The notes beneath the pieces were generated by a model. It saw nothing but the letters and a program-made list of their open reading frames with translations. It searched no databases and was not told the origin of the DNA. A program made the translations under genes and the position numbers. A DNA stretch of 13,658 nucleotides. Origin: Tannerella sp. (GTDB lineage Bacteria; Bacteroidota; Bacteroidia; Bacteroidales; Tannerellaceae). Positions 1-13,267 of this stretch are shown one piece after another; within the stretch, counting starts at the first letter, position 1; every line of letters starts with the position of its first letter. The stretch is taken from contig JAITQL010000031.1 in NCBI GenBank assembly GCA_031288935.1, forward strand, positions 1 through 13,658. The letters are read 5' to 3'.

Positions 1-634
1 TACCGGCTAATTGAATGAGCAGGAAAAAGTCGACCATCGAATGGACGGCCGTTTCGCTTTGCCCTACGCCAACGGTTTCGACGAAAATCGTATCAAAACC
101 GGCAGCCTCGCACAAGATAATGGTTTCTCTCGTCTTGCGGGCTACTCCGCCCAGCGAACCGGCTGTGGGGGAGGGGCGTATAAATGCGTTTTTTTCGCGC
201 GAAAGGGTTTCCATGCGCGTTTTGTCGCCCAGGATACTGCCTTTGGAACGTTCGCTGCTGGGATCAATGGCAAGTACGGCCAGCTTGTGCCCTTTGCGTA
301 TCATGTGCATGCCGAAAGCATCAATGGAAGTACTTTTTCCGGCTCCGGGCACGCCCGTGATACCGATACGCACGGAACGTCCCCTGTGCGGAAGGCATCG
401 TTCGATAATCTCCTGCGCCTGCCGGTGATGTTCGTCCCGGGCGCTCTCAATCAGCGTGACCGCCTGGCTGAGGATGGCAATATCTCCACGAAAAATACCC
501 TCCGTAAACTCGGAGGTCGTGTACTGTTTCGGGCGTATGATTTTTTTGAGATAAGGGTTAACGGTCGGCACATCCGACACGCCTTCGCTGACTTTTAATC
601 CTTTGTATTGCGCTTCGTTTTCAGGATGTATCAT
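1..634 (-). CDS. meaB: MeaB/ArgK-type GTPase, methylmalonyl-CoA mutase chaperone (3' end cut by window)
   Basis: The 211 visible residues match the MeaB/ArgK (MMAA) G-protein family, which loads and protects the adenosylcobalamin cofactor of methylmalonyl-CoA mutase in the cytoplasm. In Bacteroidales this enzyme works in the succinate-propionate route. The helical N-terminal part (about residues 40-82) is followed by the Walker A motif GVPGAGKS at 94-101, then AIDPSSERSKGSILGDKTRM (switch region) and the G3-like motif ETVGVGQSE near residue 190. The base-recognition motif and dimerisation arm lie outside the window. The start ATG at 634 is 9 bp after the stop of the DUF1573 gene, so the two are probably cotranscribed. 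The mutase subunits are not visible here. Assignment to the family is firm; a different substrate mutase in this subfamily is the only realistic alternative. Confidence 0.93.
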   Translation of the reverse strand, partial: MIHPENEAQYKGLKVSEGVSDVPTVNPYLKKIIRPKQYTTSEFTEGIFRGDIAILSQAVTLIESARDEHHRQAQEIIERCLPHRGRSVRIGITGVPGAGKSTSIDAFGMHMIRKGHKLAVLAIDPSSERSKGSILGDKTRMETLSREKNAFIRPSPTAGSLGGVARKTRETIILCEAAGFDTIFVETVGVGQSETAVHSMVDFFLLIQLAG

Positions 635-643
635 TCCGTTCTT

Positions 644-1780
644 TTACTTGTATCCTTCGGCGACGATTCGGATTCCGCGCACCGGGCCGCGCGCGTCGTT
701 ACACACGACATACAGGTCTGTTTCCAGCGTGCCTTTTACTGTTTTCGGGTTGAGCATCACGTTCAACGTAACCGTTTCACCCGGCTGTAACGTTTTCCTG
801 TCTATTGCCACCTGCACACGTTCGTCGTCGCAACCGGCGCTGTGAAGCGTCAGGGCCGATTTGCCTTCATTGGTGATTGTAATCTGCTGCGACGCGCGCT
901 TGTTGCCCAATCCGAGGAATCCGCTTTTCTTCAACTTGCCAAAGCCTGCCACCGTATTCGAAAGCTGGATAGCCGGCCCGTTGGCTTTTTGTTCTGCCGA
1001 CAGGAGCGAAAAATCGTCGATAAAGTTCATCGAAACCGGAAGTGTCTGTATGTGCGTAACGCCGGAAGCGCTCACCGTCTTCCACGTAATCGGGTTCAAT
1101 AAATGGCCGCGCTTGTCGGCAAGCCCGGAGGCATCCAGCGTAATCCTGAACCGTTCCGCCTTTCCGCTTTTCAACTGTTCGGGTGCTTCCACCCGGATAA
1201 AATCCGGAATGTTTTCGAACGAAAGCGTCAGATCTTCATCGGCGAAGTTCTGCATCCACAGTTCCTGCTTGATCACTGCTCCGGGGCGAACGGTATAAAA
1301 TACAAACTCCTTCCGTTCCATCTGGACGGTACCGATCGTATCATGAAAACTCCGTTGCAGATTGGCGGATTTGGGCACCACATCCCCCGTGATCGATACC
1401 CGCAGACGCTGCTCCTTGTCGTTGGTGTAAATCATTACATTCTTCTTGAACGGGCCGGGACGGTTCGTCGGATCGTATGTAATGATTACCTCGCCCTTTT
1501 TTCCCGGCGCGATCGGAGCATTCGTCCACTGCGGTTCCGTGCAGCCGCAGGAAGACTGCACGTGTGTAATGACTAATGGGGCATTTCCGACATTCCCGAC
1601 ATGAAACACATGAGTGGCAAAACCGCTTTCTTCGTTGATCAGTCCGAAATCAAATGCAGTCTCGTCCAGGGCGGCGACCGGTTTTCCTTCCGTTTCCGCC
1701 TTCACATCCTGCGAACGAACCGACTGGCACAGGAAGCTCAGTCCGCAAAGAAAAACAGCAAATGCCCGCATAGTCTTCAT
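644..1780 (-). CDS. Secreted DUF1573 protein, long form with Ig-like repeats
   Basis: This 378-residue protein has an N-terminal signal peptide (hydrophobic stretch about residues 5-20, likely cleavage after the SVRS region). A DUF1573 domain spans about residues 38-135, with the family pattern FDFGLINEESG, a CGC triplet at 78-80 and an IAPGKKGEV turn. About 240 further residues look like two more beta-sandwich segments (about 140-255 and 270-378), the last with the turn LQPGETVTLNVMLNP typical of ASH/Ig-like folds. DUF1573 proteins are common in Bacteroidetes and Planctomycetes; their function is unknown. The gene follows the short DUF1573 gene by 21 bp, suggesting duplication and extension, and precedes meaB by 9 bp. 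An A/G-rich stretch (AAAAAAGAAG) lies just before the ATG. A start at Met4 is also possible. Confidence 0.9.
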   Translation of the reverse strand: MKTMRAFAVFLCGLSFLCQSVRSQDVKAETEGKPVAALDETAFDFGLINEESGFATHVFHVGNVGNAPLVITHVQSSCGCTEPQWTNAPIAPGKKGEVIITYDPTNRPGPFKKNVMIYTNDKEQRLRVSITGDVVPKSANLQRSFHDTIGTVQMERKEFVFYTVRPGAVIKQELWMQNFADEDLTLSFENIPDFIRVEAPEQLKSGKAERFRITLDASGLADKRGHLLNPITWKTVSASGVTHIQTLPVSMNFIDDFSLLSAEQKANGPAIQLSNTVAGFGKLKKSGFLGLGNKRASQQITITNEGKSALTLHSAGCDDERVQVAIDRKTLQPGETVTLNVMLNPKTVKGTLETDLYVVCNDARGPVRGIRIVAEGYK

Positions 1781-1801
1781 CTTCTTTTTTTGTCGGGATG
1801 A

Positions 1802-2191
1802 TTACTTGGGAATCACGTTTCCCTTAATCGTCAGCGCATAGCTCCCGGTTTTTCCGTTGCTGTATACGCTTACTGTTTTTGTAAACCGGTTCGGCCGTCC
1901 GGACGGGTCATACGTAGCCTTGATTTCTCCTGTTTTGCCGGGAGCAATCGGCTCTTTCGTCCATTCGGGTGTCGTACAGCCGCACGAAGCCACTACTTTT
2001 GAAATAACCAGCGGCAATTCGCCGTTGTTAAGAACGGTAAAGGTATGAGATACCGGCCCGTCCACTTCATTAATATCACCAAAATCATACGTTGTACTGT
2101 CAACCGATGTAATAGACGCTTCTTTCTGTTGCGCATAAACCGTTCCGGAAGTCAGTAAAATAACTGTTAGTACACATAAAACACGTTTCAT
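1802..2191 (-). CDS. Secreted DUF1573 protein, short form
   Basis: This 129-residue protein is nearly all signal peptide plus one DUF1573 domain. The signal peptide ends at about residue 20 (TSGTVYA before QQ). The domain runs from about residue 33 to the end, with YDFGDINEVDG, the CGC triplet at 70-72, PEWTKEPIAPGKTGEI and the closing TIKGNVIPK. It is strongly similar to residues 38-137 of the long DUF1573 protein downstream (same order of motifs, both ending in a VxPK segment), so the pair looks like a tandem duplication. Function is unknown; location is probably periplasmic or cell surface. A TAACTTTG box at 2221-2228 in the gap after folA may give the DUF1573-meaB part its own promoter. 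Confidence 0.9.
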   Translation of the reverse strand: MKRVLCVLTVILLTSGTVYAQQKEASITSVDSTTYDFGDINEVDGPVSHTFTVLNNGELPLVISKVVASCGCTTPEWTKEPIAPGKTGEIKATYDPSGRPNRFTKTVSVYSNGKTGSYALTIKGNVIPK

Positions 2192-2220
2192 ATTATCATT
2201 TATTATAGTTAAAACACTGG

Positions 2221-2228
2221 CAAAGTTA
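2221..2228 (-). promoter_or_regulatory. Possible -7 box upstream of the short DUF1573 gene
   Basis: Read on the minus strand, TAACTTTG matches the Bacteroidetes -7 consensus TAnnTTTG and lies 29 bp before the ATG, in the short gap between the folA stop and the DUF1573 start. No clear TTTG is found 19-21 bp further upstream, so this may be a weak internal promoter or chance. Confidence 0.35.
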
Positions 2229-2231
2229 CCG

Positions 2232-2759
2232 CTAATTCTCTCCGGTTGTATCCGAAGGGCTATTATTTTTTCTTATATACGTAAAAAAAGTGTGTGCATG
2301 GGGATTTTTACCGTCCTGCGGAAAACCCTGACGGTCTGTTTCTATCCACTCTGAATCAGCGATCGGCGGGAAAAAAGTATCCGCATCCGCAAACGTATGA
2401 TGTACTTTTGTCAGATACATCTTTTCCGCCACGGCCATTGCCTGGCGGTACACGCTGGCGCCGCCGATGATAAACACTTCTTCTTCACCTTCACAGGAAG
2501 CCAGCGCCTCGCGCAACGAATGATACAGGGAGGCCTGTTCGTACTGCCTGTCCGGTTTTGTACTGAGGACGATGTTTTTCCGCTCAGGCAATGCGCCGCC
2601 GGGCAACGATTCGAACGTTTCCCTTCCCATAATCACCGTATGTCCGGTCGTAATGTCCTTAAAACGTTTCATGTCGCGGGGCAGGCGCCACAACAACTGC
2701 CGGTTTTTACCGATTGCCCGCTGCTCGTCCATTGCCGCAATAATAGAAATCACACTCAT
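2232..2759 (-). CDS. folA: Dihydrofolate reductase
   Basis: This 175-residue protein reduces dihydrofolate to tetrahydrofolate with NADPH. It has the full chromosomal DHFR pattern: ISIIAAMDEQRAIGKNRQLLW at the N terminus (residues 4-24), LPRDMKRFK with the acidic active-site residue Asp29 (counterpart of E. coli Asp27), the cofactor-binding segment VIMGRETFESLP, the EEEVFIIGGASVY motif near residue 95 and the C-terminal FADADTFFP strand. The length is normal for the family. It lies 36 bp downstream of thyA on the same strand, the classic pairing in which DHFR regenerates the folate oxidised by thymidylate synthase. The 3' tail (about residues 163-175) is polar and not conserved. Being of the normal chromosomal type, nothing marks it as a trimethoprim-resistance allele. 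Confidence 0.97.
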   Translation of the reverse strand: MSVISIIAAMDEQRAIGKNRQLLWRLPRDMKRFKDITTGHTVIMGRETFESLPGGALPERKNIVLSTKPDRQYEQASLYHSLREALASCEGEEEVFIIGGASVYRQAMAVAEKMYLTKVHHTFADADTFFPPIADSEWIETDRQGFPQDGKNPHAHTFFTYIRKNNSPSDTTGEN

Positions 2760-2763
2760 TTCC

Positions 2764-2796
2764 TGAATCTTTGAATTTTTTGAATCTTTGAATTTT
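2764..2796. repeat. Two direct copies of TGAATCTTTGAATTTT between thyA and folA
   Basis: Two perfect 16-bp copies (2764-2779 and 2781-2796), one base apart, fill almost the whole 36-bp thyA-folA gap and touch the thyA stop codon. The same kind of motif (TCAAAATTCGG twice) recurs at 7385-7425 upstream of pgpH, so this may be a common intergenic filler in this genome. There is no inverted symmetry that would suggest a terminator. Confidence 0.7.
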
Positions 2797-3590
2797 CATA
2801 CCGACACATCGCCTTTGATGTGCGGACAGGGGTCGTAATTGACAAGTTCGAAATCTTCATACCGGAAGTCGAAAAGGCTTTTCACACCGGGATTGATTTT
2901 CATCTGCGGAAGCGTCCGCGGCGTCCGCGTCAACTGCAACTTCACCTGTTCGAAATGATTGCGGTAGATGTGCGCATCGCCCAGCGTATGGATAAAATCA
3001 CCCGGCTCCAATCCGGTCACCTGCGCCGTCATCTGCAACAGCAGTGCGTAGGAGGCAATGTTGAACGGCACCCCCAGAAACAGGTCGGCGCTGCGCTGAT
3101 AGAGTTGCAGACTCAGCCGTCCGTTCGCCACGTAAAACTGGAAAAATGCATGGCAGGGCGGGAGGTTCATGTTGGCAAGATCGCCTACATTCCAGGCGCT
3201 GACCATGATTCGCCGCGAATCGGGATGATGCTTGATGGCATGAACGGCCTCGCCGATCTGGTCGATGAAACCGCCGTTGCCGTCGGGCCAGGAACGCCAC
3301 TGATAACCGTAGATATGACCCAGTTCGCCGTGCTCGTCCGCCCATTCGTTCCAAATGCGCACATCGTGTTTTTGCAGGTAATCGACATTCGTATCTCCGC
3401 TCAGAAACCACAACAATTCGTGGATGATGGACTTCAGATGCAGTTTCTTCGTCGTAAGCAACGGAAATCCCCCGCCCAGGTCAAACCGCATCTGATACCC
3501 GAAGATACTCAAGGTGCCTGTACCCGTCCGGTCTTCTTTTTTCGCCCCCTTCCGGAGCGTCTCGTCAAGCAAGTCTAAATATTGTCTCAT
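2796..3590 (-). CDS. thyA: Thymidylate synthase (ThyA type)
   Basis: This enzyme methylates dUMP to dTMP using methylene-tetrahydrofolate, leaving dihydrofolate for the FolA encoded just downstream. With the start at 3590 the protein has 264 residues, the same as E. coli ThyA, and opens [12 protein letters not shown]. Visible motifs are [12 protein letters not shown] (phosphate loop, Arg21), the invariant active-site segment [12 protein letters not shown] with the catalytic cysteine at residue 146, [20 protein letters not shown], and the ending [12 protein letters not shown]. An in-frame ATG at 3629 would add 13 residues, but it lies at the far edge of the promoter, which ends 9 bp before the 3590 ATG, so the longer start is unlikely. 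First gene of the thyA-folA pair. Confidence 0.97.
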
Positions 3591-3598
3591 AACGCTCG

Positions 3599-3630
3599 CA
3601 AAAGTAAGTATTAATACGGTTTGAAACAAA
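3599..3630 (-). promoter_or_regulatory. Bacteroidetes sigma-ABfr-type promoter of thyA
   Basis: On the minus strand TTTG (3627-3630), a spacer of exactly 20 bp, and TACTTTTG (3599-3606) match the -33/-7 consensus of the Bacteroides primary sigma factor. The box ends only 8 bp before the thyA ATG, so the expected start of transcription leaves a leader of just a few bases. This position fixes the thyA start at 3590. Confidence 0.8.
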
Positions 3631-3864
3631 AAATATTTCTCGCCGCAACCGGCCGGTCAAAAGAAACGGCATCCCCCGGCAACAGGCACGTCCTTCACTC
3701 CGCAGATGCCGTGACATAGCCGATCCTGCCTGTAAAGGACACTGCGCAAAGACCGGAAACGGGCGAAGCCGCAGAAGGCCGCTGACCGACAAACAGCGTT
3801 CGGTGATATTCCGAATCGCTCGATGAATCATTCGCCATGTTCCGGTTTTAATTTTCATCATGCG

Positions 3865-3883
3865 TACTTTTGCTTTATCTTTG
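3865..3883 (+). promoter_or_regulatory. Two overlapping-register -7 boxes upstream of the 21-bp array
   Basis: TACTTTTG (3865-3872) and TATCTTTG (3876-3883) both fit TAnnTTTG on the plus strand. They lie in the otherwise gene-free stretch 3591-4011, about 25-45 bp before the overlapping ATGs at 3908 and 3912. No perfect TTTG is found at the -33 position of either. They are the best candidates for transcription of the 21-bp array and the broken gene at 4249. From 3640 to 3860 I see nothing else: no conserved protein, RNA or strong hairpin. Confidence 0.55.
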
Positions 3884-3911
3884 CCCTCATTCATCCGATA
3901 ATCAGTTATGA

Positions 3912-4307
3912 ATGGAAACGGTTTTCAAATCATCATCCTGTTACTCGGCACACAGATCACCAACTTTAAGGAAACTCTCCGCCATTGACAGACATATCCC
4001 CGTAATTTTGCAAGTCGACTTTGCAATCCCAAAAGTTGGCTTTTCATTTCCAAAAGTCAACTTTGCAATTTCAAAAGTCGACTTTTCATCTACAAAAGTC
4101 AACTTTGTATTTCTAAAAGTCGACTTTGCTTTTTTACAAGTCGACTTTGCAAACTCACAAGTCAACTTTTTAATTTCAAAAATGGCGGTGCGGGCTGACT
4201 TATATACGGACTTTTTATACGGCTATACATTTCTAAAATTCAATCATCATGTCGCATACAAATTACATTCACGTCGCATTGAACGAACTCCGGGAATGGC
4301 TTGTTAA
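3912..4307 (+). CDS. Possible leader ORF running through the 21-bp array (doubtful)
   Basis: An open frame of 131 codons starts 29 bp after the second -7 box, crosses all eight 21-bp repeat units and stops 56 bp inside the next gene. In the array it reads as a heptapeptide repeat of the form VDFxxxK/VNFxxxK (for example VNFAISK, VDFSSTK), alternating hydrophobic and polar positions. The other strand is also open through the repeat (KSTFxxA-type heptads), so openness alone is weak evidence. A second ATG at 3908, overlapping by ATGAATG, opens a different 26-codon frame (begins MNGNGFQIIILLLGTQ). I do not recognise either peptide. If translated, this would be a leader peptide coupled to the gene at 4249 rather than a folded enzyme. 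Confidence 0.2.
   Translation: METVFKSSSCYSAHRSPTLRKLSAIDRHIPVILQVDFAIPKVGFSFPKVNFAISKVDFSSTKVNFVFLKVDFAFLQVDFANSQVNFLISKMAVRADLYTDFLYGYTFLKFNHHVAYKLHSRRIERTPGMAC
4012..4179. repeat. Tandem array, 8 units of exactly 21 bp with palindromic core
   Basis: Eight contiguous units of 21 bp have no spacers. Each starts AAGT and has the core AAGTCGACTTT or AAGTCAACTTT (unit 2 has GTTGGC), followed by an A/T-rich variable tail of about 9 bp ending CAA or CAC. The core GTCGAC is a perfect palindrome, extended to AAAAGTCGACTTTT where units 3 and 4 meet. The core types in order are GTCGAC, GTTGGC, GTCAAC, GTCGAC, GTCAAC, GTCGAC, GTCGAC, GTCAAC. A 21-bp period is two helical turns, so all cores face the same side of the DNA. 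The array sits between a promoter and the broken gene at 4249. It is not a CRISPR array because nothing separates the units. Confidence 0.92.
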
Positions 4308-4702
4308 ATTCCGGGACTGTCTGAAGCAGAACCTCAAGCGGTTTGGTCTCGCAAGCGGAACGGAAGAGCCGCTCGAAGCGAAAATCGAAGACTGTCTGGC
4401 TGCCTGCGCCGGGGCAAACCGTGCGAACGCGGGCAGGACAGACCGGCTTGGACGCAGGGAAAAGGCTGAAGGAGGCAACTGCTGCCGTGTGCGGCTTTGT
4501 CAACAGGTATCCGCGATGCAACGGGGCCGTAACCGACAGAGACCGCCTGTCGCCCGGACTGCACATCCGCGATACGGAACTTGCGCCCGCGCCTGTTCCG
4601 GCTACCTGTCCCCTGGCCGTCGTCACCCTCCCCGGCATACGGCAACTGTCCGTCGCCTTCCGCGCTGCCCGGACAGACTTTCAGCATGGAATCTCACCTT
4701 GA
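4249..4702 (+). pseudogene. Frameshifted, truncated gene of a Bacteroidales-restricted family (MSHTNYI... type)
   Basis: The first part, from ATG 4249 (opens MSHTNYIHVALNELREW), reads in one frame to about 4470 (NAGRTDRLGRREKAEG). The conserved continuation then appears in the next frame (+1): CGFVNRYPRCNGAVTDRDR, then DTELAPAPVPATCPLA, then PGIRQLSVAFR, ending at 4702. From memory, Bacteroidales carry many paralogous proteins of about 200-230 residues with this order: N-terminal MSHxxYIP and a helical domain, then VTDRDRxxxG, a proline-rich linker and IRxLxVHFR, then an Ig/fibronectin-like C-terminal domain. Here the frame breaks once and the C-terminal domain is missing, so the gene is probably dead. 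Its 3' end overlaps the convergent sigma factor gene by 9 bp. Family function is unknown. The alternative, a genuine 177-residue protein in the first frame, fits poorly because its second half is arginine/cysteine-rich and unlike any fold. Confidence 0.65.
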
Positions 4703-5236
4703 AAAGGTCAGGTAATCCTTCAGGTTTATGCGCAGTTGTTTCAGGGCTTTGGAGAGGTGGTATTCGACGGCCTTGGACGTGATGTTCAGCGCGGCGGCAA
4801 TCCGGCTTGCGGACATGTTCCGGTAACGGCTCATCAGGAAGATCTCGCGCGTCTTCTCGGGCAGAGCGTTCAAGGTAGCTTCGAGGATTTCGGTCACGTC
4901 GCGCGAGTAGATTTGCTCGGGATCGCAGGCTTCGAGCGTGGAAATGCGCGTGTTCAATTCTCTCATTCCGGTTTCGGACATCGTGGCCAGCGCTTCCTGG
5001 CGGGCGATTTCACGCCGCAGGTGATCAACGGACTTGTTTTTCACAATACCGAACAAAAAGGTGAGCGGATGACGGATTTCATGTTCCTTCATCGTTTCCC
5101 AGAGGCTGATTAACGCTTCGGAAGCAATGTCCTCCGCCACCCATTCGTCGTGGACGTAGGATTTGGCAAACAAAAACGTCCTCCTGTAATGGCTGACATA
5201 GAATTTGTTGAAATTGAACTGTCCGGTATCCGTCAT
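4694..5236 (-). CDS. ECF RNA polymerase sigma factor (Bacteroides expansion type), no adjacent anti-sigma gene
   Basis: The protein has 180 residues and standard ECF architecture. Region 2 (about residues 12-80) includes FLFAKSYVHDEWVAEDIASE and HPLTFLFGIVKNKSVDHLRR. Region 4 (about 118-175) includes LNALPEKTREIFLMSRY and the helix-turn-helix NMSASRIAAALNITSKAVEY. It directs core RNA polymerase to a small set of promoters. Most sigma factors of this kind in Bacteroides sit next to a FecR-type anti-sigma and a SusC/SusD pair; here there is none. Instead it lies 30 bp after the c-di-AMP phosphodiesterase gene on the same strand, so the two are probably cotranscribed. A good ribosome site (AAGGAAG) precedes the ATG. 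The 3' end overlaps the pseudogene from the opposite strand by 9 bp. Confidence 0.93.
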   Translation of the reverse strand: MTDTGQFNFNKFYVSHYRRTFLFAKSYVHDEWVAEDIASEALISLWETMKEHEIRHPLTFLFGIVKNKSVDHLRREIARQEALATMSETGMRELNTRISTLEACDPEQIYSRDVTEILEATLNALPEKTREIFLMSRYRNMSASRIAAALNITSKAVEYHLSKALKQLRINLKDYLTFSR

Positions 5237-5266
5237 GTCTTCCTTATGAAATTTGTGAACCCTGCT

Positions 5267-7312
5267 TCACGTCCGTTCGGTGATCAGGTCCGGGTAGCTG
5301 ATGCGCGTATGATACATGGTTTTCAGTTTCTCCACGAACGTAGTCTTGATCACTTCGATCTCGTGGAACGTCAGCGGCGCATTCTTCAGCAAACCGTCGG
5401 CCATCTGCCCGTCGATGATCCTGTCGACCAGCATACAGAGTTTTTCGTCCGTATATTCATTCAGACTGCGCGAAGCCGCTTCCACCGAATCGGCCATCAT
5501 CAGTATCGCCGTCTCCTTTGAAAAGGGATTCGGGCCGGGATACGTGAACTGCGACTCGTCTACCGGCGTGTCCGGGAAGGCGTTTCGGAATGAATGGTAG
5601 AAGTATTTGGTTTTTCCCGTGCCGTGATGCGTGCGGATAAAGTCGACGACGGCCTTGGGCAGCGAGGCCTTTTCGGCCAGTTTGATTCCCTCCGCGACGT
5701 GACGGATGATGATTTGCGCGCTCTTCTCGAACGGCAGATTCCGGTGCGGATTGGCGTCGCCCTTCTGGTTTTCGGTGAAGAATACCGGATGCTCCATCTT
5801 GCCGATGTCGTGATACAGGGCGCCGGTGCGAACCAGCTGCGTGTCGGCGCCGATTTCCGAGCCGGCGGCGGAAGCCAGGATCGAGACTTGCAGGGAATGT
5901 TGAAACGTGCCGGGGCACGTCTCCGAAAGCTTTTTCAGCAGCGGCGTATTGATGTTGGAAAGCTCTATCAGCGTGATGGGAGACGTGTAGCCGAAGAGCT
6001 TTTCCAGTATGTAGACCAATGTATAGGAAAACAGCAGCAGAATCAGGTTGATGCCGAAGAAAAGCAACACGATCCAGCGGATCTTGCCCAGGTCGCCTTC
6101 CTGGTAAAGCGACAGGCTCAGGTAGCCGAGCGTGTAGGTCATGAAGATGAAGATCGAGCAGCGGATCAGCTGCGAACGCTGCGACAGCTCTTTCAGGCTG
6201 AACACGACGACGATCCCGGCCAGGATTTGCAGGAGCAGAAATTCATGCGGAAACGGAGCCACGAGCGAGCACAGCAGCACGGTGACCAGATGCGTGAAGA
6301 GCGCCGTGTGCGAATCGAAGAACGTGCGCACCACAATGGGCACAATCGCAAACGGGAGTATGTAGAGGTTGAACAGGTCGTGCTTGACGCAGACTTCGGA
6401 AAGCAGGCAGAACACGAGCAGGCAGAGCAGGATGAAAATCGCGTTGCGGCGGCGGAAGAACAGTTCCGGGCAAAACGTGGCCATGTACAGTCCGCAGCAG
6501 AAAAGAATGCCGAAGACCAGGATAAACTGTCCCGTCCAGATAAGGCCGAGCTGTCTGTCGCCGGCCGAGCGGGATTCGTGGATGATCTTGAGCGAGCGGA
6601 GCATGTTGTACGTCTTGTGATCGACCACCTCGCCGCGGTCAACGATCCGCTCGCCGGCCTGTACCATTCCGGTAGATAGGGCGACGTTTTTCAGCTGTCC
6701 GTTCAGCATCTTTTCGGACATCTCCCGGTCTTCGCCCGCGTTGTCGGCCAGATAGTCGCCGACGTGAAACGACATCAGATGCGCTGCCTCCAGCGGCGGG
6801 GGGAGGCTGTTCAGCAGGCGGTCGTAAGCCGACTTGGCCGTATGAAAGTTCTCCGTGCGCCTCGGGCCGGCCATGTTGTTTTCCAGCACGTACACCTGCT
6901 CTACATGATCCTTCTTCAGGTTCTCAAGCTGCTGGGCCGGCAGGATGCCGCCGTCGTAGATTTGCTCCAGCTCGCATTCGATGTACTTCAGGTAAGGCGT
7001 GTCTCCGGTCTCCCGGACGGCGGCCGCCGAATGGTTGGCGCGCAGTTTTTCGATCTGTTCCGTCTTCACGTTCGTATCCAGCCGGAAATAAGGCTCGAAT
7101 TTCCGCTTGATACTGTCTTTTTCCGCCTTCACTTCCTCGTCGGTCTTGTAAATCGGGAAGTCGTTCGGCGCCGTCAGCAAGCCGTATCGCCAGGGTTTTC
7201 CCTCGTAGAACTGATAGCGGAACTTTCCCTCGCGCGGAAAGAAGTACGCAATCAGCATGGCTGTAATACCGAAGTATACAATAGATTGAACAGTCGATTT
7301 TTTTGATTTCAT
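5267..7312 (-). CDS. pgpH: 7TM-HD family membrane phosphodiesterase (PgpH/YqfF-like, c-di-AMP hydrolase)
   Basis: The 681 residues have the full 7TMR-HDED / 7TM / HD layout: one N-terminal membrane helix (about 8-24), a large extracytoplasmic domain (about 25-255), a cluster of seven membrane helices (about 256-436, starting LGLIWTGQFILVFGILF), then a cytoplasmic HD domain. HD-domain metal ligands are visible: His472 (FQHSLQVS), His501-Asp502 (ALYHDIGKMEHP), His563/His564 (RTHHGTGKTKYF) and Asp608 (MMADSVEAA). In PgpH of Firmicutes this domain cleaves c-di-AMP to pApA; the same reaction is inferred here. The start chosen is ATG 7312 (MKSKKSTVQ); ATG 7324 would add MYNA. The open frame extends much further upstream but that part is intergenic in composition. 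The ECF sigma gene follows in the same operon. Confidence 0.92.
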   Translation of the reverse strand: MKSKKSTVQSIVYFGITAMLIAYFFPREGKFRYQFYEGKPWRYGLLTAPNDFPIYKTDEEVKAEKDSIKRKFEPYFRLDTNVKTEQIEKLRANHSAAAVRETGDTPYLKYIECELEQIYDGGILPAQQLENLKKDHVEQVYVLENNMAGPRRTENFHTAKSAYDRLLNSLPPPLEAAHLMSFHVGDYLADNAGEDREMSEKMLNGQLKNVALSTGMVQAGERIVDRGEVVDHKTYNMLRSLKIIHESRSAGDRQLGLIWTGQFILVFGILFCCGLYMATFCPELFFRRRNAIFILLCLLVFCLLSEVCVKHDLFNLYILPFAIVPIVVRTFFDSHTALFTHLVTVLLCSLVAPFPHEFLLLQILAGIVVVFSLKELSQRSQLIRCSIFIFMTYTLGYLSLSLYQEGDLGKIRWIVLLFFGINLILLLFSYTLVYILEKLFGYTSPITLIELSNINTPLLKKLSETCPGTFQHSLQVSILASAAGSEIGADTQLVRTGALYHDIGKMEHPVFFTENQKGDANPHRNLPFEKSAQIIIRHVAEGIKLAEKASLPKAVVDFIRTHHGTGKTKYFYHSFRNAFPDTPVDESQFTYPGPNPFSKETAILMMADSVEAASRSLNEYTDEKLCMLVDRIIDGQMADGLLKNAPLTFHEIEVIKTTFVEKLKTMYHTRISYPDLITERT

Positions 7313-7384
7313 AGCGTTGTACATATTATTAATAGAAACATTTTCGTCCTTGTCCCGTTGTTTTCGGGGGATAAATGTACAAAA

Positions 7385-7425
7385 AAGATTCAAAATTCGG
7401 GATTCAAGGGTCAAAATTCGGCGTT
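7385..7425. repeat. Short direct repeats TCAAAATTCGG upstream of pgpH
   Basis: Two copies of TCAAAATTCGG lie in an A/T-rich run with a related GATTCAAG motif between them. They resemble the TGAATCTTTGAATTTT pair between thyA and folA. They lie in the 337-bp divergent gap between pgpH and gltX. I see no function. Confidence 0.5.
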
Positions 7426-7450
7426 TCGGGCAGATTGAATGCATTTCAGC

Positions 7451-7486
7451 GCCGGCGAAATGGCTTTTTACGGCCTTTTCGCCGGC
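7451..7486. repeat. GC-rich inverted repeat in the pgpH-gltX divergent region
   Basis: GCCGGCGAAA (7451-7460) pairs perfectly with TTTCGCCGGC (7477-7486). After one T-T mismatch, GGC/GCC pairs extend the stem to leave an 8-base loop. It lies between the two divergent start sites, so a terminator role is unlikely: no gene ends here. It could be a palindromic repetitive element or an operator. Just downstream (about 7505-7540) the motif GCCGGAA recurs three times at about 10-bp spacing. Confidence 0.6.
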
Positions 7487-7564
7487 GAATCCGCGTTGAA
7501 ATCCGCGCCGGAAGCTGCCGGAAGCCGCCGGAAATCCCGAATCTTGCATCTTGATGCCCGAATC

Positions 7565-7597
7565 TTTCAGTCGTTGAATAAAAAAGTAGTACTTTTG
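7565..7597 (+). promoter_or_regulatory. Probable promoter of gltX-waaA
   Basis: TACTTTTG (7590-7597) is a perfect -7 box of the Bacteroidetes type; TTTC at 7565-7568, 21 bp before it, is a one-mismatch -33 box. It lies 64 bp before the gltX ATG. An A/T-rich stretch including TAAGTTTACAG precedes the start codon, with no Shine-Dalgarno sequence, which is normal in this phylum. Confidence 0.55.
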
Positions 7598-7661
7598 CGC
7601 CGGATTCGGGCGATTTTTCCGAATCCGCGCTTTTTTAGAATAACAAACACTAAGTTTACAG

Positions 7662-9170
7662 ATGGTCAGAGTACGTTTTGCCCCCAGTCCGACGGGGCCG
7701 CTGCATATCGGCGGCGTCCGCACGGCATTATACAATTACCTGTTCGCCAAACAGCACGGCGGCCGGTTGATCCTTCGGATCGAAGACACCGATTCGCAAC
7801 GTTTCGTGCCCGGCGCGGAAGAGTATATCATTGCCTCCTTCCAGTGGCTGGGGATTCCCTTCGACGAAGGAGTGGGCTGCGGAGGCGCGCACGCCCCCTA
7901 CCGCCAGAGCGAGCGGAAGGCGATTTACAGGCAATACGTCGACCGCCTGCTGGCGGACGGGAGCGCGTATCTTGCGTTCGACACGCCGGCCGAACTCGAG
8001 GCCAAACGCAGGGAAATCCCCAACTTCCAGTACGACGCCTCCACGCGCGGACAGATGCGCAACGCGCTCACCCTGTCGCCCGGAGAGGTGAAGGCGCTGA
8101 TCGACGCCGGACAGCAGTACGTCGTGCGCATACGGGTCGAGCCGGACGAGGACATCCGCGTGAACGACCTGATCCGCGGCGAAGTGGTGATCCACTCGTC
8201 CATTATCGACGATAAAGTCCTGTTTAAATCCTCCGACGGCTTGCCGACCTACCATCTCGCCAATATTGTGGACGATCACCTGATGGAAATCACGCACGTC
8301 ATCCGCGGCGAGGAGTGGCTTTCGAGCGCTCCGCTGCACGTGCTGCTGTACCGCTGCCTGGGGTGGACGGATACCATGCCGGCCTTTGCGCACCTGCCCC
8401 TGCTTCTCAAGCCCGAGGGCGGAGGCAAGCTGAGCAAGCGCGACGGCGACCGCCTCGGATTCCCCGTTTTCCCGCTCGAATGGCAGGATCCCAAGAGCGG
8501 CGAGCGGTCGGCCGGCTATCGCGAAAGCGGATACCTGCCCGAAGCCGTGGTGAACTTCCTCGCCCTGCTGGGATGGAATCCCGGAGACGACCGGGAGCTG
8601 TTGACCGTGCAGGAACTGATTGACTGTTTCGATCTGAGCCGGTGCAGCAAAAGCGGGGCGAAGTTTGACCATGAAAAAGGCAAGTGGTTCAATCACCAGT
8701 ACATCCAGAAGCGTGCCGACAGCGAGGTAGCCGCCCTCTTCATGCCCGTTCTGCGGGCGCACGGCGTGGAGGCCGCTCCCGCGTATGTCGAAAAGGTGGT
8801 GGGGATGATGAAGGAACGGGTCAGTTTCATTCCCGACCTGTGGGGGCAGACGCATTACTTCTTCAAGGCGCCGGAAACGTATGACGAAAAGACGCGCGCC
8901 AAACGCTGGAAGGCAGACAGCGCCGTGCAGCTGGCGGAACTGGCGGACGAGGTGTTGAGCGACCGCGAGCCGTTCGACGTGGAAGGCACCGAAGAGGCCG
9001 TCAAGGCGTGGATCGCCGGGAAAGGCTACCATCTGGGCAACATCATGAACGCCGTGCGCCTGGCGCTGGTCGGCGAAGGCATCGGCCCGCAGATTTTCCA
9101 TATCACCGAAGCCGTCGGAAAGGAGGAAACCCTCCGGCGGATCCGGCGTGCCGTCGAACTGTTGAAGTAA
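7662..9170 (+). CDS. gltX: Glutamyl-tRNA synthetase
   Basis: This 502-residue class I synthetase charges tRNA-Glu with glutamate in the cytoplasm. The N-terminal Rossmann fold begins [20 protein letters not shown], containing the HIGH-type signature (His15-Gly18), followed by [11 protein letters not shown]. The second signature appears as GGKLSKRDG (Lys256-Arg260), the KMSKS counterpart. The C-terminal anticodon-binding helical part (about 330-502) is complete and the length is usual for Bacteroidales. A short insertion after the KLSKR loop ([20 protein letters not shown]) is a feature I associate with the Bacteroidetes enzyme. It is followed after 5 bp by waaA, so the two are almost certainly one transcript. 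Long open frames on the other strand are shadows of GC-rich codon use. Confidence 0.97.
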
Positions 9171-9175
9171 AACGC

Positions 9176-10447
9176 ATGAACGTCTTCTATACATCCGCCC
9201 TGCATCTGTATGCCCTGTCGACGGAGGTGGCGTCTTTCTTCCTGCGCAAGGCGCGGATGACGCGGCTGGGGCAATGGCATACCAACGGCATCCTGCGCGA
9301 ACGGATAGACCCCCGCGCCCGCTACGTCTGGTTTCACGCCGCTTCGCTGGGCGAGTTTGAACAGGGACGGCCGGTGATGGAACTCCTGCGGACGCGGTTT
9401 CCCGAATACAAAATCCTGCTGACTTTCTTCTCGCCCTCGGGGTACGAGGTGCGCAAAAACTATGACGGGGCGGACGTCATCTGTTACCTCCCCTTCGACA
9501 CGCCCTACAAGGTGAAAAAATTCCTCAACCTGGCGCATCCCGCCGTGGCGGTCTTTATCAAATACGAATTTTGGCTCAACTACCTCTCCGAACTCAGGCG
9601 CCGACGCATCCCGACATACCTGATCTCGGCGATTTTCCGTCCCGAACAGCTTTTCTTCAAACGCTACGGAGGGTGGTATCTGAAAGCGCTGTTCTGCTTC
9701 GACCGCCTCTTTGTGCAAGACCGCGCGTCGGCGCTGCTGCTGGCCGCTCACGGCGTGACGAACGTAAGCGTTTGCGGCGACACGCGCTTCGACCGCGTAC
9801 TGGCCGTTCAGCGACAGGCGCGCCTGCTGCCCGTTGTCGAGCAGTTTGTAGCCGGCGACAGGCCGGTGCTCGTGGCCGGAAGCACCTGGCCGCAGGACGA
9901 GGAAATACTCCTCGCCTACTTCAACGCGCACCCCGAAGTGCAGCTGATCATTGCCCCTCACGAGATTCACCGCGAGCATCTGATGGATATCGAATCCCGG
10001 CTCGAACGTCCGTCCATCCGCCTGTCCGAGACGAACGACCAGTCCGTTGCCGACAAGGACTGTCTGATCATCGACAGCTTCGGACTCCTTTCCTCCATCT
10101 ACCGCTATGGACAGATGGCCTACATCGGCGGCGGGTTCGGAAAAGGGATTCACAATACGCTGGAGGCAGCCGTGTACGGCATTCCGGTGATGTTCGGTCC
10201 GAAATACCAGAAATTCCGCGAGGCCAGGGAACTGATTGCCGCAGGCGGGGGCGTCTGCGTGACGGACGGCGGCGCGCTGGCGCTGCAAATGAACGAGTGG
10301 GTCGCACATCCCCAAGCGTGCCGGAATACAGGCCGCATAGCGGGCGATTATGTGCAGCAAAACAGCGGCGTCAGCGAAAAGATTTTCCGCGAAATACCGT
10401 TTTCACACGTTTCCGCCGGCCGCCCGGACGAAGTTCCGCAAGAATAG
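9176..10447 (+). CDS. waaA: 3-deoxy-D-manno-octulosonic acid (Kdo) transferase
   Basis: The protein has 423 residues (E. coli WaaA has 425) and belongs to glycosyltransferase family GT30. It adds Kdo from CMP-Kdo to the lipid A precursor at the cytoplasmic face of the inner membrane, so the organism makes lipopolysaccharide with a Kdo-lipid A core. The N-terminal hydrophobic segment is followed by WFHAASLGEFEQGRPV with the catalytic glutamate at residue 60, the same number as in E. coli. Further motifs are FIKYEFWLNYL, AIFRPEQLFFKRYGGWY, AGSTWPQDEE (nucleotide binding), IIAPHEIHREH and YIGGGFGKGIHNTLEAAVYG near the C terminus. The start at 9176 is 5 bp after the gltX stop; the frame is open upstream but only as a shadow of gltX. 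No further gene follows in the operon. Confidence 0.96.
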   Translation: MNVFYTSALHLYALSTEVASFFLRKARMTRLGQWHTNGILRERIDPRARYVWFHAASLGEFEQGRPVMELLRTRFPEYKILLTFFSPSGYEVRKNYDGADVICYLPFDTPYKVKKFLNLAHPAVAVFIKYEFWLNYLSELRRRRIPTYLISAIFRPEQLFFKRYGGWYLKALFCFDRLFVQDRASALLLAAHGVTNVSVCGDTRFDRVLAVQRQARLLPVVEQFVAGDRPVLVAGSTWPQDEEILLAYFNAHPEVQLIIAPHEIHREHLMDIESRLERPSIRLSETNDQSVADKDCLIIDSFGLLSSIYRYGQMAYIGGGFGKGIHNTLEAAVYGIPVMFGPKYQKFREARELIAAGGGVCVTDGGALALQMNEWVAHPQACRNTGRIAGDYVQQNSGVSEKIFREIPFSHVSAGRPDEVPQE

Positions 10448-10537
10448 ACCGGTTTACACAATTTCCCTGCTTTCAGAAAGGCGTCTTTTCATGAACGCCG
10501 TTCTATCATAGAAAGCCTGTGCCTCTCCGTCGCAAGC

Positions 10538-10663
10538 CGCCGTACCCTGTCCGCAGACGGAAGGGCAACGTCCTTCAAGCATTGGCACAGAACAACAGAC
10601 GAAAGAGTAACATACTTCAAACATTGGCACAGAACAACAGACGGAAGGGTAACGCCCTTTAAG
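10538..10663. repeat. 42-bp tandem repeat, two full copies plus a degenerate first copy
   Basis: Units 10580-10621 and 10622-10663 are each 42 bp and begin CATTGGCACAGAACAACAGA, followed by a variable middle and a CTTCAAA or CTTTAAG end. 10538-10579 is a degenerate copy that keeps only the second half (CAGACGGAAGGGCAACG and CCTTCAAG). A new copy starts at 10664 (CAATGTCACAG) but turns into a hairpin. The repeat follows waaA by about 90 bp. On the minus strand it reads as a 14-residue cysteine-containing repeat (SVCCSVPM), but I see no gene signals there. Confidence 0.85.
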
Positions 10664-10823
10664 CAATGTCACAGGGCAGCGCCCTGTGACATTGCATACA
10701 CGTTTGCCCCAGGCCCTGAAAGGGCGAAAGCCGGTTGCTATCAGGCTTTCAGCCCGGGAAGGGCTGTGTTGTTTCATACGCAGGGCGTTGCCCTGCGCTA
10801 ATGCTTAAAAGGCTTTCAGCCTT
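10664..10823. repeat. Cluster of short palindromes, probable dispersed repetitive element
   Basis: Five inverted repeats lie in 160 bp. CAATGTCACAGGGC pairs perfectly with its reverse complement (10664-10677/10681-10694, 3-base loop). GCCCT-GAA-AGGGC is at 10713-10725. AGCCC-GGGAA-GGGCT is at 10751-10765. CGCAGGGC-GTT-GCCCTGCG is at 10779-10797. AAGGCT-TTC-AGCCTT is at 10809-10823. Loops are mostly 3 bases. Sequences of this style (GCCCTGAAAGGGC, CAGGGCGTTGCCCTG) recur between genes in many Bacteroidales genomes as I remember them, so this is best read as a REP-like intergenic element. None of the hairpins is followed by a T run, so none is a standard terminator. Confidence 0.75.
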
Positions 10824-10933
10824 CCGAATATTCCCTTCTTCATCCCAAAAGAATACCGTAAACCTTTTTTGATTATGCAGGTCTTTATAAGTTAAATCTA
10901 CATAAATGCCCGTGCGCATGTCTTTTTTTTACT

Positions 10934-10941
10934 TACTTTTG
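10934..10941 (+). promoter_or_regulatory. -7 box upstream of the second 42-bp array and the DUF6261 gene
   Basis: TACTTTTG matches TAnnTTTG on the plus strand, after a T-rich run. No good TTTG lies 19-21 bp upstream. Expected transcription would begin near 10950, cross the 42-bp array and reach the DUF6261 gene as a leader of about 500 bases. A 12-codon frame (10959-10997, MHKITGKTMPRI) follows, overlapping by ATGA the start of a longer frame at 10994 that runs into the array. Confidence 0.5.
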
Positions 10942-11108
10942 ACCGCATTTCAAAAGCAATGCATAAAATCACAGGAAAAACAATGCCGCGTATATGAGCA
11001 TCTATCCGAACATATCCTATTTTCTCCGGTCGGCGCGCGAACAAAACGGTCTGAAAAGTAATCACAGACCGACCATCTTAATCTGCACTGTTCTGCAGTC
11101 GTGCTGTC

Positions 11109-11377
11109 GGCCGGAGAACCGGTATTCCAGCCCCGCGAAGCCGTGCGGGAGGCCGGAGAACCGGTATTCCAGCCCCGCGAAGCCGTGCGGAAGGCCGGAG
11201 AACCGGTATTCCACCCCCGCGAAGCCGTGCGGAAGGCCGGAGAACCGGTATTCCACCCCCGCGAAGCCGTGCGGGAGACCGGAGAACCGGTATTCCACCT
11301 TTCCGAAGCCGTCGGGAGGCCGGAGAACCGGTATTCCACCTTCCCGAAGCCGTGCGGAAGGTTGGAGAACGGGTACG
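11109..11377. repeat. Tandem array of 42-bp units (six, plus a decayed seventh) before DUF6261
   Basis: Units start at 11109, 11151, 11193, 11235, 11277, 11318; 11360-11377 is a decayed seventh. All are 42 bp except the fifth (11277-11317), which is 41 bp: it reads CCGTCGGGA where the others read CCGTGCGGGA or CCGTGCGGAA. Each contains CCGGAGAACCGGTATTCC with the palindrome ACCGGT and flanking GGA/TCC symmetry, then CCGCGAAGCCGTGCGG, an inverted repeat with an 8-base loop. Units 5-6 have TTTCC or TTCCC in place of CCCGC. All six frames are open in the repeat, so long open frames here say little, and the 1-bp deletion breaks every one of them. The array ends about 85 bp before the DUF6261 start. 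Confidence 0.93.
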
Positions 11378-11439
11378 CTGCCGGATCGGAACGGTGTCAT
11401 TGGCCGGCGAAGTGCATTTCAAGCGTCTCAAATTATTAT

Positions 11440-11456
11440 TAATCCATTAAACAGGA
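11440..11456 (+). repeat. 17-bp motif TAATCCATTAAACAGGA, copy 1 (before DUF6261)
   Basis: This is identical to 13193-13209 in front of the metallo-hydrolase gene. Here it ends 6 bp before the DUF6261 ATG, so its AGGA could serve as a ribosome-binding site. A 17-bp perfect match within about 1.8 kb is unlikely by chance and suggests a shared leader or a duplicated gene front. Confidence 0.8.
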
Positions 11457-11462
11457 ATCCGT

Positions 11463-12188
11463 ATGCAAATAAACACGTTTAGTAAGTCCAAACTCCACAA
11501 CAGCGAGTATTTTCAGTTTTTTACCGAAGAAAAAGACCTGATCGACCTGGCCACGCCCGCCGCACTGGGTATAGCGCCGCAGTATCCGGCCTTTGTGACG
11601 AAGTATTATCTGCTCGACGACAATCTGAAACTGATTTTCAAGAGTCCCGTGACCGCGGAGCGCGTGGAGGCCGACCACGTGCGCGACAACACGTTTGCGG
11701 GGACGCACGGCGCCGTACAGAACGCGAAGCACCACTTCAATCCGGAGATCGTCAAAGCGGCCGGACGGGTGGCCATCGTCTTCGATACCTACGGCAACAT
11801 TGCGCACAAGTCGTACAACGAGGAAACGGCCGACATTTTCAACCTTCTGCGGGAACTGCGCACCCATCATGCGCCGGACATCGAGCTGCTGGGACTGCTT
11901 CCCTGGCTCGAAAAGCTGGAGGCCGACAATCTCTATTTCGAATCGCTCACGAAGGAGCGCATCGACGAGATGGCGAAGGTCAGCGAGGATACGGTGAAGG
12001 CGATCCGGCTGGATCTGAACGCCATTCACGACGACATCGTCGCCCGCGTCAATGCCCGGCTCCTGCTCATGCCCGACGACATCTGCGAAAATTTTGCCCG
12101 CAAGCTCAACGCCTGCATCAAACTCTACGCCGACACCCTGGCGCAGCGCAGCGGACGCAGGCACGAACAGAATGATTTGGGTATATGA
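11463..12188 (+). CDS. DUF6261 family protein, function unknown
   Basis: This 241-residue soluble, mostly helical protein has no signal peptide or membrane segment. The opening (MQINTFSKSKLHNSEYFQFF), the segment VEADHVRDNTFAG, the pattern NAKHHFNPEI, KSYNEETADIFNLLREL and the C-terminal helical half match what I know of DUF6261, a Bacteroidales-restricted family that occurs in many copies per genome, often beside repeats. No catalytic motif is visible. The gene is preceded by the 42-bp array and the 17-bp motif. Its stop overlaps a short frame by ATGA (MSRLTLNDEEQE). The C-terminal tail RSGRRHEQNDLGI is low-complexity and not conserved. Codon use resembles the housekeeping genes of the window (GC-rich third positions), unlike the A/T-rich small frames that follow. 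Confidence 0.85.
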   Translation: MQINTFSKSKLHNSEYFQFFTEEKDLIDLATPAALGIAPQYPAFVTKYYLLDDNLKLIFKSPVTAERVEADHVRDNTFAGTHGAVQNAKHHFNPEIVKAAGRVAIVFDTYGNIAHKSYNEETADIFNLLRELRTHHAPDIELLGLLPWLEKLEADNLYFESLTKERIDEMAKVSEDTVKAIRLDLNAIHDDIVARVNARLLLMPDDICENFARKLNACIKLYADTLAQRSGRRHEQNDLGI

Positions 12189-12206
12189 GCCGTTTAACAT
12201 TGAACG

Positions 12207-12401
12207 ATGAAGAACAGGAATGACAGGAAACTTCACTGCCTCCAGGGAAATGAAAATCTGATAGGCAGACTGTTTAAAACGCACAAAGCAGTCTTCTATT
12301 CCGAGGATGTCGAAAAGATGGAAACAATGACGCTTGAAGAAAAAAATGAATATCTGCGCTATTTAAAAGGAGAAAACCGTTATGTCTATGAAGATGAATA
12401 A
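12207..12401 (+). CDS. Small hypothetical protein
   Basis: A 64-residue open frame starts 19 bp after the DUF6261 stop. It is charged and probably helical, with GRLFKTHKAVFYSED, KMETMTLEEKNEYLRYL and the ending GENRYVYEDE. Base composition is A/T-richer than DUF6261 before it. I do not recognise the family. It may be the front of a gene whose rest is the frame at 12437-12598, in a different register. A real small protein is plausible because the amino-acid mix is protein-like and acidic, but there is no homology evidence. Confidence 0.4.
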   Translation: MKNRNDRKLHCLQGNENLIGRLFKTHKAVFYSEDVEKMETMTLEEKNEYLRYLKGENRYVYEDE

Positions 12402-12436
12402 CTGTTCTCCGCTTCCAACCCTTGCCCCGTCCGCGC

Positions 12437-12598
12437 GATGGCGATTTTCAATACGGGTTTTTCGGTTTAACCGGATTTTATTATACGGCAACGCCAGACG
12501 GCAGGGGATGGATTGCCTATTCGGAAATGAAAGGTTTTGAATATGCAGAAAGATTGGCAATCTCATCATGTATTATGAATACGCTATGCTGTCCCTGA
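12437..12598 (+). pseudogene. Gene fragment without a start codon
   Basis: This frame has protein-like sequence (DGDFQYGFFGLTGFYYTA, then GRGWIAYSEMKGFEYAERLA) but no ATG. It is open back to a TGA at 12395-12397, with only a TTG at 12422 as possible start. The downstream end (about 12575-12598) runs into the repetitive element that begins near 12600, so the element may have cut the gene. It is probably a remnant, possibly of the gene whose front is at 12207. Family unknown. Confidence 0.4.
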
Positions 12599-12599
12599 T

Positions 12600-12795
12600 C
12601 ATCTCAAACCGCATCCCTATCGGGATGCACAGTTCGGTAGAAACCGTCTGCACGTCCCCGGCCCGGCATTCCAGGGGAATGCAACTCTATCTTTCGGGCA
12701 GCATTCCTGACGGCAGGACGACAGGAGCCGTCAATCATTCTTCTACCGGGCGATGCAGTCCGACGGGCTGCAAAACCCGTGCGAATATTACTCTT
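12600..12795. repeat. Palindrome-rich repetitive element (degenerate, noncoding)
   Basis: Inverted repeats with short loops are packed here: GCATCCC-TATC-GGGATGC, GCATTCC-AGG-GGAATGC, TGACGGC...GCCGTCA (12-base loop) and ACGGG...CCCGT. I have seen closely similar text, often mis-called as small proteins (minus-strand fragments such as GRADGFYRTVHPDRDAV), in several Bacteroidales genomes. It is therefore best treated as a dispersed repeat. The 429-bp stretch 12402-12830 holds only this and the gene fragment above. Confidence 0.6.
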
Positions 12796-12830
12796 AGACC
12801 TGACACGAAGCATTTGTTTAATTATTTACA

Positions 12831-13046
12831 ATGAACTGGAGATACTTTTTTAAGAAAACCCCGAAAAAGCAATATGAATTGTGGGGCGAAGACACTTTTA
12901 ACTATCAAGATATAGAGCGCTACCGCATCGCCGTTTACACCGACTGGCAAGAGGCAGAAGCGGAGTTGCAGAAAAGGCGGCAGGAAGCGGGCGGGGAAAA
13001 AGGAATCATGAATTATTGGATATGGGAAAGAGAAATCGAAAATTGA
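12831..13046 (+). CDS. Small hypothetical protein
   Basis: This 71-residue open frame opens MNWRYFFKKTPKKQYELWG, followed by EDTFNYQDIERYRIAVYTD and a helical EAEAELQKRRQEA segment, closing MNYWIWEREIEN. Rich in aromatic and charged residues, it looks like a small soluble single-domain protein. The start follows an A/T-rich stretch, typical for the phylum. The last 25 bp overlap the next small frame. I do not recognise the family. Small aromatic proteins next to repeats are sometimes immunity proteins of toxin systems, but no toxin gene is visible. Confidence 0.45.
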   Translation: MNWRYFFKKTPKKQYELWGEDTFNYQDIERYRIAVYTDWQEAEAELQKRRQEAGGEKGIMNYWIWEREIEN

Positions 13047-13189
13047 TTGGCAGATTTACTCCGGAGGCTCCAACTTTTACCACAAGCGTTCGTCGCAGTA
13101 GGAGGGAAAAGGTAGCGCCGCAGCCTGCATCTCCTTTTCACTGGAAAGAGAAAAACGATTCGGAAGGATTTGGCGGAGTAGATTTATGA
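13022..13189 (+). CDS. Very small hypothetical protein, overlapping the previous frame
   Basis: A 55-codon frame (opens MGKRNRKLIGRFTPEAP, ends EGFGGVDL) starts inside the end of the frame at 12831 and is in another register. It is basic, with a RRSRREK run, then PQPASPFHWKEKN. The overlap would allow coupled translation. It could equally be the displaced end of the 12831 gene after a frameshift. No family recognised. Its opening shares the residues LIGR with the frame at 12207 (NENLIGRLFKTHKA), possibly by chance. Confidence 0.25.
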   Translation: MGKRNRKLIGRFTPEAPTFTTSVRRSRREKVAPQPASPFHWKEKNDSEGFGGVDL

Positions 13190-13192
13190 TAA

Positions 13193-13209
13193 TAATCCAT
13201 TAAACAGGA
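13193..13209 (+). repeat. 17-bp motif TAATCCATTAAACAGGA, copy 2 (before the metallo-hydrolase)
   Basis: This copy is identical to 11440-11456. Here it lies 58 bp before the ATG of the next gene, so it is not its ribosome site. It may mark the front of a lost DUF6261-type gene or a shared upstream element. Confidence 0.8.
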
Positions 13210-13227
13210 CGCCCCTTAACGGAAAAA

Positions 13228-13243: not shown

Positions 13244-13267
13244 CATAATTCAAAAAAACATCGGAAT

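Follow-up and report, generated by a model that had tools for sequence, protein, structure and literature searches.

The window, by which we mean the whole 13,658-nt stretch of Tannerella sp. DNA analysed here (assembly GCA_031288935.1, contig JAITQL010000031.1, positions 1 to 13,658), contains tandem arrays upstream of genes from two protein families, one that we denote family A and the other DUF6261. The features relevant to this analysis are:

4003..4010, forward strand: match to the −7 box TAnnTTTG, letters TAATTTTG, one base before the array
4012..4179, forward strand: array of eight 21-bp units with dyad core AAAGTYRACTTT (TRF and unit inspection)
4249..4470, forward strand: first frame of a family A gene, matching its N-terminal third (own HMM)
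4457..4702, forward strand: continuation of that family A gene in a second frame, covering its middle part (profile match at 4457–4672)
10554..10674, no strand assigned: short 42-bp array, 2.9 copies (TRF)
11109..11375, forward strand: second array, period 42 bp, 6.4 copies (TRF; dyad alone P = 0.38)
11463..12188, forward strand: DUF6261 gene (PF19775, by Pfam), starting 87 bp past the 42-bp array

The first-pass annotation reported eight exact 21-bp units with palindromic cores at 4012–4179, and this was confirmed using TRF, which returned a row at 4012–4181 with period 21, 8.1 copies and a score of 144, and a top-scoring row with period 63 and a score of 205; across 100 Markov-shuffled versions of the window, the highest score at a period of at least 15 was 58. 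All units are contiguous and exactly 21 bp long, each consisting of the near-palindromic core AAAGTYRACTTT and a looser tail, with unit-to-unit identity of 87% over the first 12 bp and 59% over the last 9 bp. Within the 12-bp dyad, 4 to 6 of the 6 pairs are complementary, and the dyad score was reached by none of 100 permutations. The centre of the core reads GTCGAC in units 1, 4, 6 and 7 (4/8), GTCAAC in units 3, 5 and 8 (3/8) and GTTGGC in unit 2, such that the first two forms partly alternate along the array. A search of the array against its own genome recovered only itself and its own reverse strand.

The array has thyA, a family A fragment and an ECF sigma gene as neighbours. The octamer at 4003–4010, which we take to be a Bacteroidetes-type −7 promoter box on the basis of its consensus, and the family A match from 4249 agree with the proposed order of promoter, array and gene, although the gene itself is broken. 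We call this copy (4249–4702) broken because it matches the family A profile in two frames (ORF 4249–4782, E = 7e-19; ORF 4343–4702, E = 1.7e-13; both with our own HMM), while the C-terminal third of the profile found no match behind the array. The ECF sigma gene (4694–5236) has the family A remnant against its 3′ end and no anti-sigma-like neighbour. In four relatives (L342, L343, L344 and L347), the ECF sigma gene is followed by an anti-sigma-like gene (by eye); since the remnant lies where these relatives have that gene, we regard the spot as rearranged.

Two known kinds of array were rejected on local grounds. The units are contiguous, with no spacer-sized gaps, which argues against a CRISPR array; the Pfam hits of the eight window ORFs included no cas gene, and a single sub-cut-off Cas3_HD hit fell on a 7TM-HD protein. 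A plasmid iteron was rejected on the grounds that no replication initiator is found among the neighbours. No partition gene was found among the eight window ORFs scanned.

Family A proteins are about 222 residues long, give only sub-cut-off hits in Pfam and NCBIfam, and have no match in PADLOC or PHROGs. Counting the window's genome each time, the family occurs in 12 of the 41 genus genomes (74-residue query), 11 of 295 in the order and 5 of 296 in the phylum; it was not found in the viral_contigs collection nor, with one query protein, in the plasmids collection. The 25 named loci come from MAGs designated Tannerella sp., Prevotellaceae, Dysgonamonadaceae and, in one case, Treponema sp. In this last MAG, a family A gene accompanies a 21-bp array (L105, JAISMJ010000020.1), reflecting either mis-binning or transfer. 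Using 49 loci from the genus and order, from which repeat records and loci cut at the contig start were omitted (L027, L035, L119, L136 and L138 among them), we found an upstream tandem array at 42, with a fundamental TRF period of 21 in 36, 42 in 5 and 22/44 in 1. Four of these arrays have only about two copies, and two of the four lie more than 350 bp from the gene; six of the seven loci with no array are among the 17 from other genera of the order. Beyond the class, 11 of 14 loci carry an array (period 21 in 7, 42 in 2, 34 in 1 and 84 in 1). Tandem repeats with units of just 7 or 8 bp, such as CATTCTC or AATTAG-type ones, often occur near L039, L048, L052, L058, L069 and other loci. AlphaFold2 models family A with high local confidence (pLDDT 91.7, pTM 0.53), placing a beta-sandwich after a helical bundle. 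Most of the 50 PDB matches listed for the model are Fn3 domains, with no classical DNA-binding domain standing out among them, and the protein is accordingly modelled as a helical bundle plus an Fn3 domain.

The gene downstream of the 11109 array belongs to PF19775, whereas that downstream of the 4012 array belongs to family A. The short array at 10554–10674 is flanked by the DUF6261 module and by a KdtA-like ORF (by eye) that ends at 10447. DUF6261 is present in 31 of the 41 genus genomes and strongly expanded in some relatives, with 55 matches in the complete genome G032, and hhalign found no relation between it and family A (probability 0.2%). Apart from a weak hit in PADLOC (E = 0.013), DUF6261 matches only its own Pfam family, and a structure predicted from a single sequence reached a pLDDT of 41.5. 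An upstream array is found at 38 of 50 DUF6261 loci, 3 of the 38 being near-identical copies and 4 of the 12 loci without an array having little upstream sequence. The period is 42 in 21 arrays, 41 in 13, 40 in 1, 83–84 in 2 and undefined in the remaining one; none of the 38 has a period of 21. Outside the genus, 18 of 27 loci have an array (period 41 in 14, 42 in 3 and 43 in 1), not counting one locus truncated at a contig end. Array period goes with protein family in several genera and families, and for family A this association reaches beyond the class.

With the window protein as sole query, no DUF6261 gene was found in viral_contigs. The same protein matched one 6.3-kb scaffold in the phages collection (L371, MT837725.1; gene at 3932–4906), which is of human faecal origin, is labelled bacteriophage and carries Vsr-type nuclease and HU-like neighbours (by eye); TRF found no 21/42-bp array on this scaffold. 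The portions of the open-access literature searched contained an unrelated mention of DUF6261 only.

We compared family genes with their genomic background. In a sample of the window's own genome (G000; 63 contigs, 12 of them picked because they hold a family gene), an array accompanies 10 of 12 family genes and 11 of 270 other genes (Fisher, 3e-11). In a gene-call test on 20 random 20-kb stretches of G032 with an array limit of 250 bp, none of four family genes had an array inside that distance; of the three inspected, the first has a 42-bp array whose end is 373 bp upstream of the domain, the second an 85-bp array and the third 8/24-bp repeats only. When the limit was relaxed to 480 bp from the domain, arrays were found at 30 of 46 listed DUF6261 genes in G032 (55 in total), compared with 37 of 310 other genes; the comparison is not like for like because of the relaxed limit and because the 30 include one 14-bp and one 85-bp array. 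Gene calls, array detection and dyad tests relied on our own scripts. The counts include many loci per genome, one dominant genus and mostly draft assemblies (the window's own genome is about 56% complete), and locus counts are not independent since several loci share ancestry.

The symmetry seen in the window recurs across both array kinds. Dyads are about 14–15 bp long and evenly spaced at 20.5–21 bp. By column permutation, 18 of 41 family A arrays and 19 of 35 DUF6261 arrays have a dyad at P ≤ 0.05, with about 2 expected in each set, although 3 of the DUF6261 arrays are near-identical copies. The 21-bp array of the window reaches significance and its 42-bp array does not. Among 38 arrays of 40–42 bp (33 DUF6261 and 5 family A), the second dyad is offset from the first by exactly half a unit (mean score 0.475 versus 0.257 ± 0.039), so a dyad occurs every 20.5–21 bp in both array kinds. 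Such even spacing, present in the arrays of 40–42 bp too, is what the proposed side-by-side dimers on one helix face would give. Within dyads, the innermost pairs are complementary in 73–75% of cases for family A and 76% for DUF6261 (commoner series), compared with 83–84% and 90–96%, respectively, for outer pairs; this pattern fits a relaxed operator centre, but a hairpin loop as well. Compensatory double changes within arrays are few: 4 of 5 were complementary in family A, where 6.5 doubles were expected, and 7 of 12 in DUF6261, where slid controls gave 0–4.

Array letters vary widely between loci, while spacing and dyad symmetry persist, and the earlier proposal that spacing is kept as sequence varies is borne out across the loci of both families. 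L026 and L042 have a common upstream region (83% over 721 bp) and unrelated arrays, and the genes of L123 and L139 are 82% identical at the DNA level, again with unrelated arrays. Protein similarity tracks array similarity weakly (Mantel r of 0.26 and 0.20; reached by none of 2,000 permutations), a correlation partly due to recent duplicates.

Of 39 family A loci, 9, the window's included, have a TAnnTTTG box in the 150 bp preceding the array, against 2.2 expected from shuffles; on the reverse strand, the same test gave 3 of 39. In a second locus set, the box precedes the array at 6 of 34 loci (1.2 expected); between array and ATG, it was found at 3 loci (2.1 expected) and 4 loci (1.2 expected). 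This is thin evidence for a promoter; the arrays may lie in the 5′ leader.

The arrays combine dyad-symmetric sites with integral helical spacing (21 or 20.5–21 bp), as in a cooperative operator. On the basis of these observations, our leading interpretation, put forward tentatively and with slightly less than even confidence, is that they are DNA-level rows of putative dimer sites on one helix face, in or near the leader. Each dyad would be the site of a homodimeric protein, the two-helical-turn spacing would line the dimers up on one face for cooperative binding, and the array would act as a multivalent element controlling or marking the gene behind it, for example by blocking RNA polymerase just past the start site. 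The window array could accordingly represent the 5′ leader array of a broken family A gene and belong to the numerous phased dyad arrays of Bacteroidota, an assignment that we also make tentatively and a little short of even confidence. Counting against this interpretation are the roughly half of arrays that individually fall short of dyad significance and the median pI of DUF6261, 6.4. The family A fold, the unrelated arrays of closely related genes, the less complementary innermost pairs, the small number of compensatory changes, the six array-less family A loci in other genera, the thin promoter evidence and a 10-locus G032 array class with neither family nearby weigh in the same direction. 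As the family proteins are not obvious DNA-binders, a putative partner protein is at least as likely a binder, and we take the family protein itself to be the less likely of the two. A broader version, which we consider doubtful, is a two-part Bacteroidota system in which a diverse multi-copy protein family is paired with its own phased dyad array; the family would set the geometry of the array, at 21 bp for family A and about 41 bp for DUF6261, and each paralogue would have its own array sequence, sometimes spread to other genes.

Alternatively, the arrays could be selfish or mobilised dispersed repeats resembling REP/REPIN sequences, with family A and DUF6261 as carriers, cargo or helpers, an explanation that we regard as rather unlikely despite the dispersal that it would explain. 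The first-pass annotation held that arrays at random positions relative to genes would refute its reading, and here the picture is divided: arrays lie 5′ of family genes, but those of G032 occupy all kinds of intergenic region. The 400-kb sample of G032 contains 69 arrays beside all sorts of genes, 6 of 46 placed arrays lying between convergent genes compared with 22 convergent regions among 129 intergenic regions of at least 150 bp, and the G000 sample contains 45 in 439 kb, 15 of which were classed as contig-edge arrays, outside the last called gene of their contig. Four loci of G004 have the AAGTCGACTT array. At one, a family A gene (HMM E = 4e-47) follows it after 35 bp; at two others, an ABC-F-like gene follows after 114 bp and a YjbR-like gene after about 100 bp (both by eye); the fourth is at a contig start, with no same-strand ORF of 100 aa for 850 bp. 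One G032 array class has 10 loci genome-wide, with neither family inside 1.5 kb. At three of these (L281, L280 and L285, at 725371, 1679695 and 125679), an integrase-like gene is followed by a 42-bp array and two small HTH-like genes (by eye), and this unit is probably a mobile element carrying the array. Also in G032, a block of array plus DUF6261 gene occurs three times (L081, L082 and L083; 95–97% identity), with homology starting about 40 bp before the array and ending at the stop codon.

Grouping arrays by unit sequence could be taken to support such carriage. At score cut-offs 52 and 56, 11 multi-member classes of the G032 sample have one DUF6261 type each, and there is no class with two. 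In G000, five unit classes each connect a single family-gene array with one or two others at different sites (best link per class 56–92; permuted pairs, maximum 36); this sharing of classes, like that of the AAGTCGACTT array in G004, we count in favour of the dimer-site reading. A strict rule of one family gene per array class was not established, as the G032 pattern is within chance (permutation P 0.16–0.50 over four cut-offs). The rule is further undercut by the 10-locus class, which has no family gene, by two and one G032 classes holding two DUF6261 types at cut-offs 44 and 48, respectively, by the 10–12 G032 classes without any DUF6261 type, by a G000 class on five contigs with no family gene in the assembled part of this roughly 56% complete genome, and by a chained G000 cluster of 13 arrays that holds several family genes at the loose cut-off of 36. 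Moreover, neither family matches a transposase family in Pfam, NCBIfam or PHROGs, and the helical bundle and Fn3-like fold modelled for family A adds to the case against REP/RAYT membership. Selfish spread alone also leaves the family-specific fixed periods unexplained.

Neutral minisatellite turnover, in which mutation favours 21- and 42-bp units without selection, is unlikely. Copy number and unit sequence do change, and array density varies from that of G032 to 6 arrays in 176 kb in G013. In the copy-number comparison suggested by the first-pass annotation, G013 and G034 could be aligned on both flanks at two array loci. One array has the same length in the two genomes, and the other has 9.5 versus 2.4 copies, a difference of 294 bp, or exactly seven 42-bp units, for which assembly collapse is possible; the phase is kept in this change, which favours the dimer-site reading. 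Unselected turnover does not, however, account for the linkage of two unrelated gene families to arrays of family-specific period, in distant genomes too, or for dyad symmetry with exact half-unit spacing.

An RNA element, with the transcribed leader forming a row of hairpins that control translation or stability, would suit a position in the 5′ leader and the somewhat relaxed, loop-like innermost pairs, but we consider it improbable. Pairing in RNA would tolerate G-U, and inside significant dyads G-T mismatches show no excess over A-C mismatches (60 versus 68 in family A; 15 versus 19 in DUF6261), which disfavours hairpins and counts against a structured RNA leader; helical spacing also has no obvious use in RNA. 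Finally, an encoded heptad-repeat peptide, raised by the earlier suggestion of selection on a 7-residue reading frame because 21 is divisible by three and ORF 3912–4307 spans the array, is highly implausible given the negative coding score of that ORF (−21.9, versus +106 for the sigma gene), its lack of a Pfam match and the frequent 41-bp period of DUF6261 arrays.

Returning to the rows of putative dimer sites, if the link to the downstream genes is functional, two families without a known role gain a testable partner, the DNA array, with a spacing that follows the family. The arrays would then be regulatory or genome-organising elements that keep geometry and symmetry while their letters change, which sequence searches miss. 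The arrays may also partly explain the poor assembly of these genomes. Among open-access titles and abstract openings, we found no description of such arrays in Bacteroidetes, Bacteroides or termite Bacteroidales, and nothing on point for 41-bp repeats of P. gingivalis.

Several known systems share part of this architecture. Iterons of plasmid replication origins are phased direct repeats of about 21 bp beside a gene; unlike these, the Bacteroidota arrays are palindromic, adjoin no Rep gene and are not conserved in sequence between loci. F-plasmid sopC consists of about ten tandem repeats of about 43 bp, each with an inverted repeat, beside the gene for a DNA-binding protein. The Bacteroidota arrays are likewise tandem units with an inverted repeat beside a gene, but are many per chromosome and fall into many sequence classes. 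Like intergenic minisatellites or VNTRs, they are tandem and can change copy number by whole units, although they are tied to two protein families and have a fixed period and dyad symmetry. REP/REPIN sequences consist of palindromic units that are scattered through intergenic regions and fall into several sequence classes, some of which have a gene linked to them; in REP/RAYT systems, a Y1/HUH tyrosine transposase is linked to a repeat class. REP/REPIN sequences with their RAYT transposases (PMC3116915) are among the closest known systems. The Bacteroidota arrays resemble them in being dispersed, palindromic, divided into several classes and in some cases linked to a gene; they differ in that their units form exactly phased tandem arrays whose period varies by protein family, and in that the linked proteins match no transposase family.
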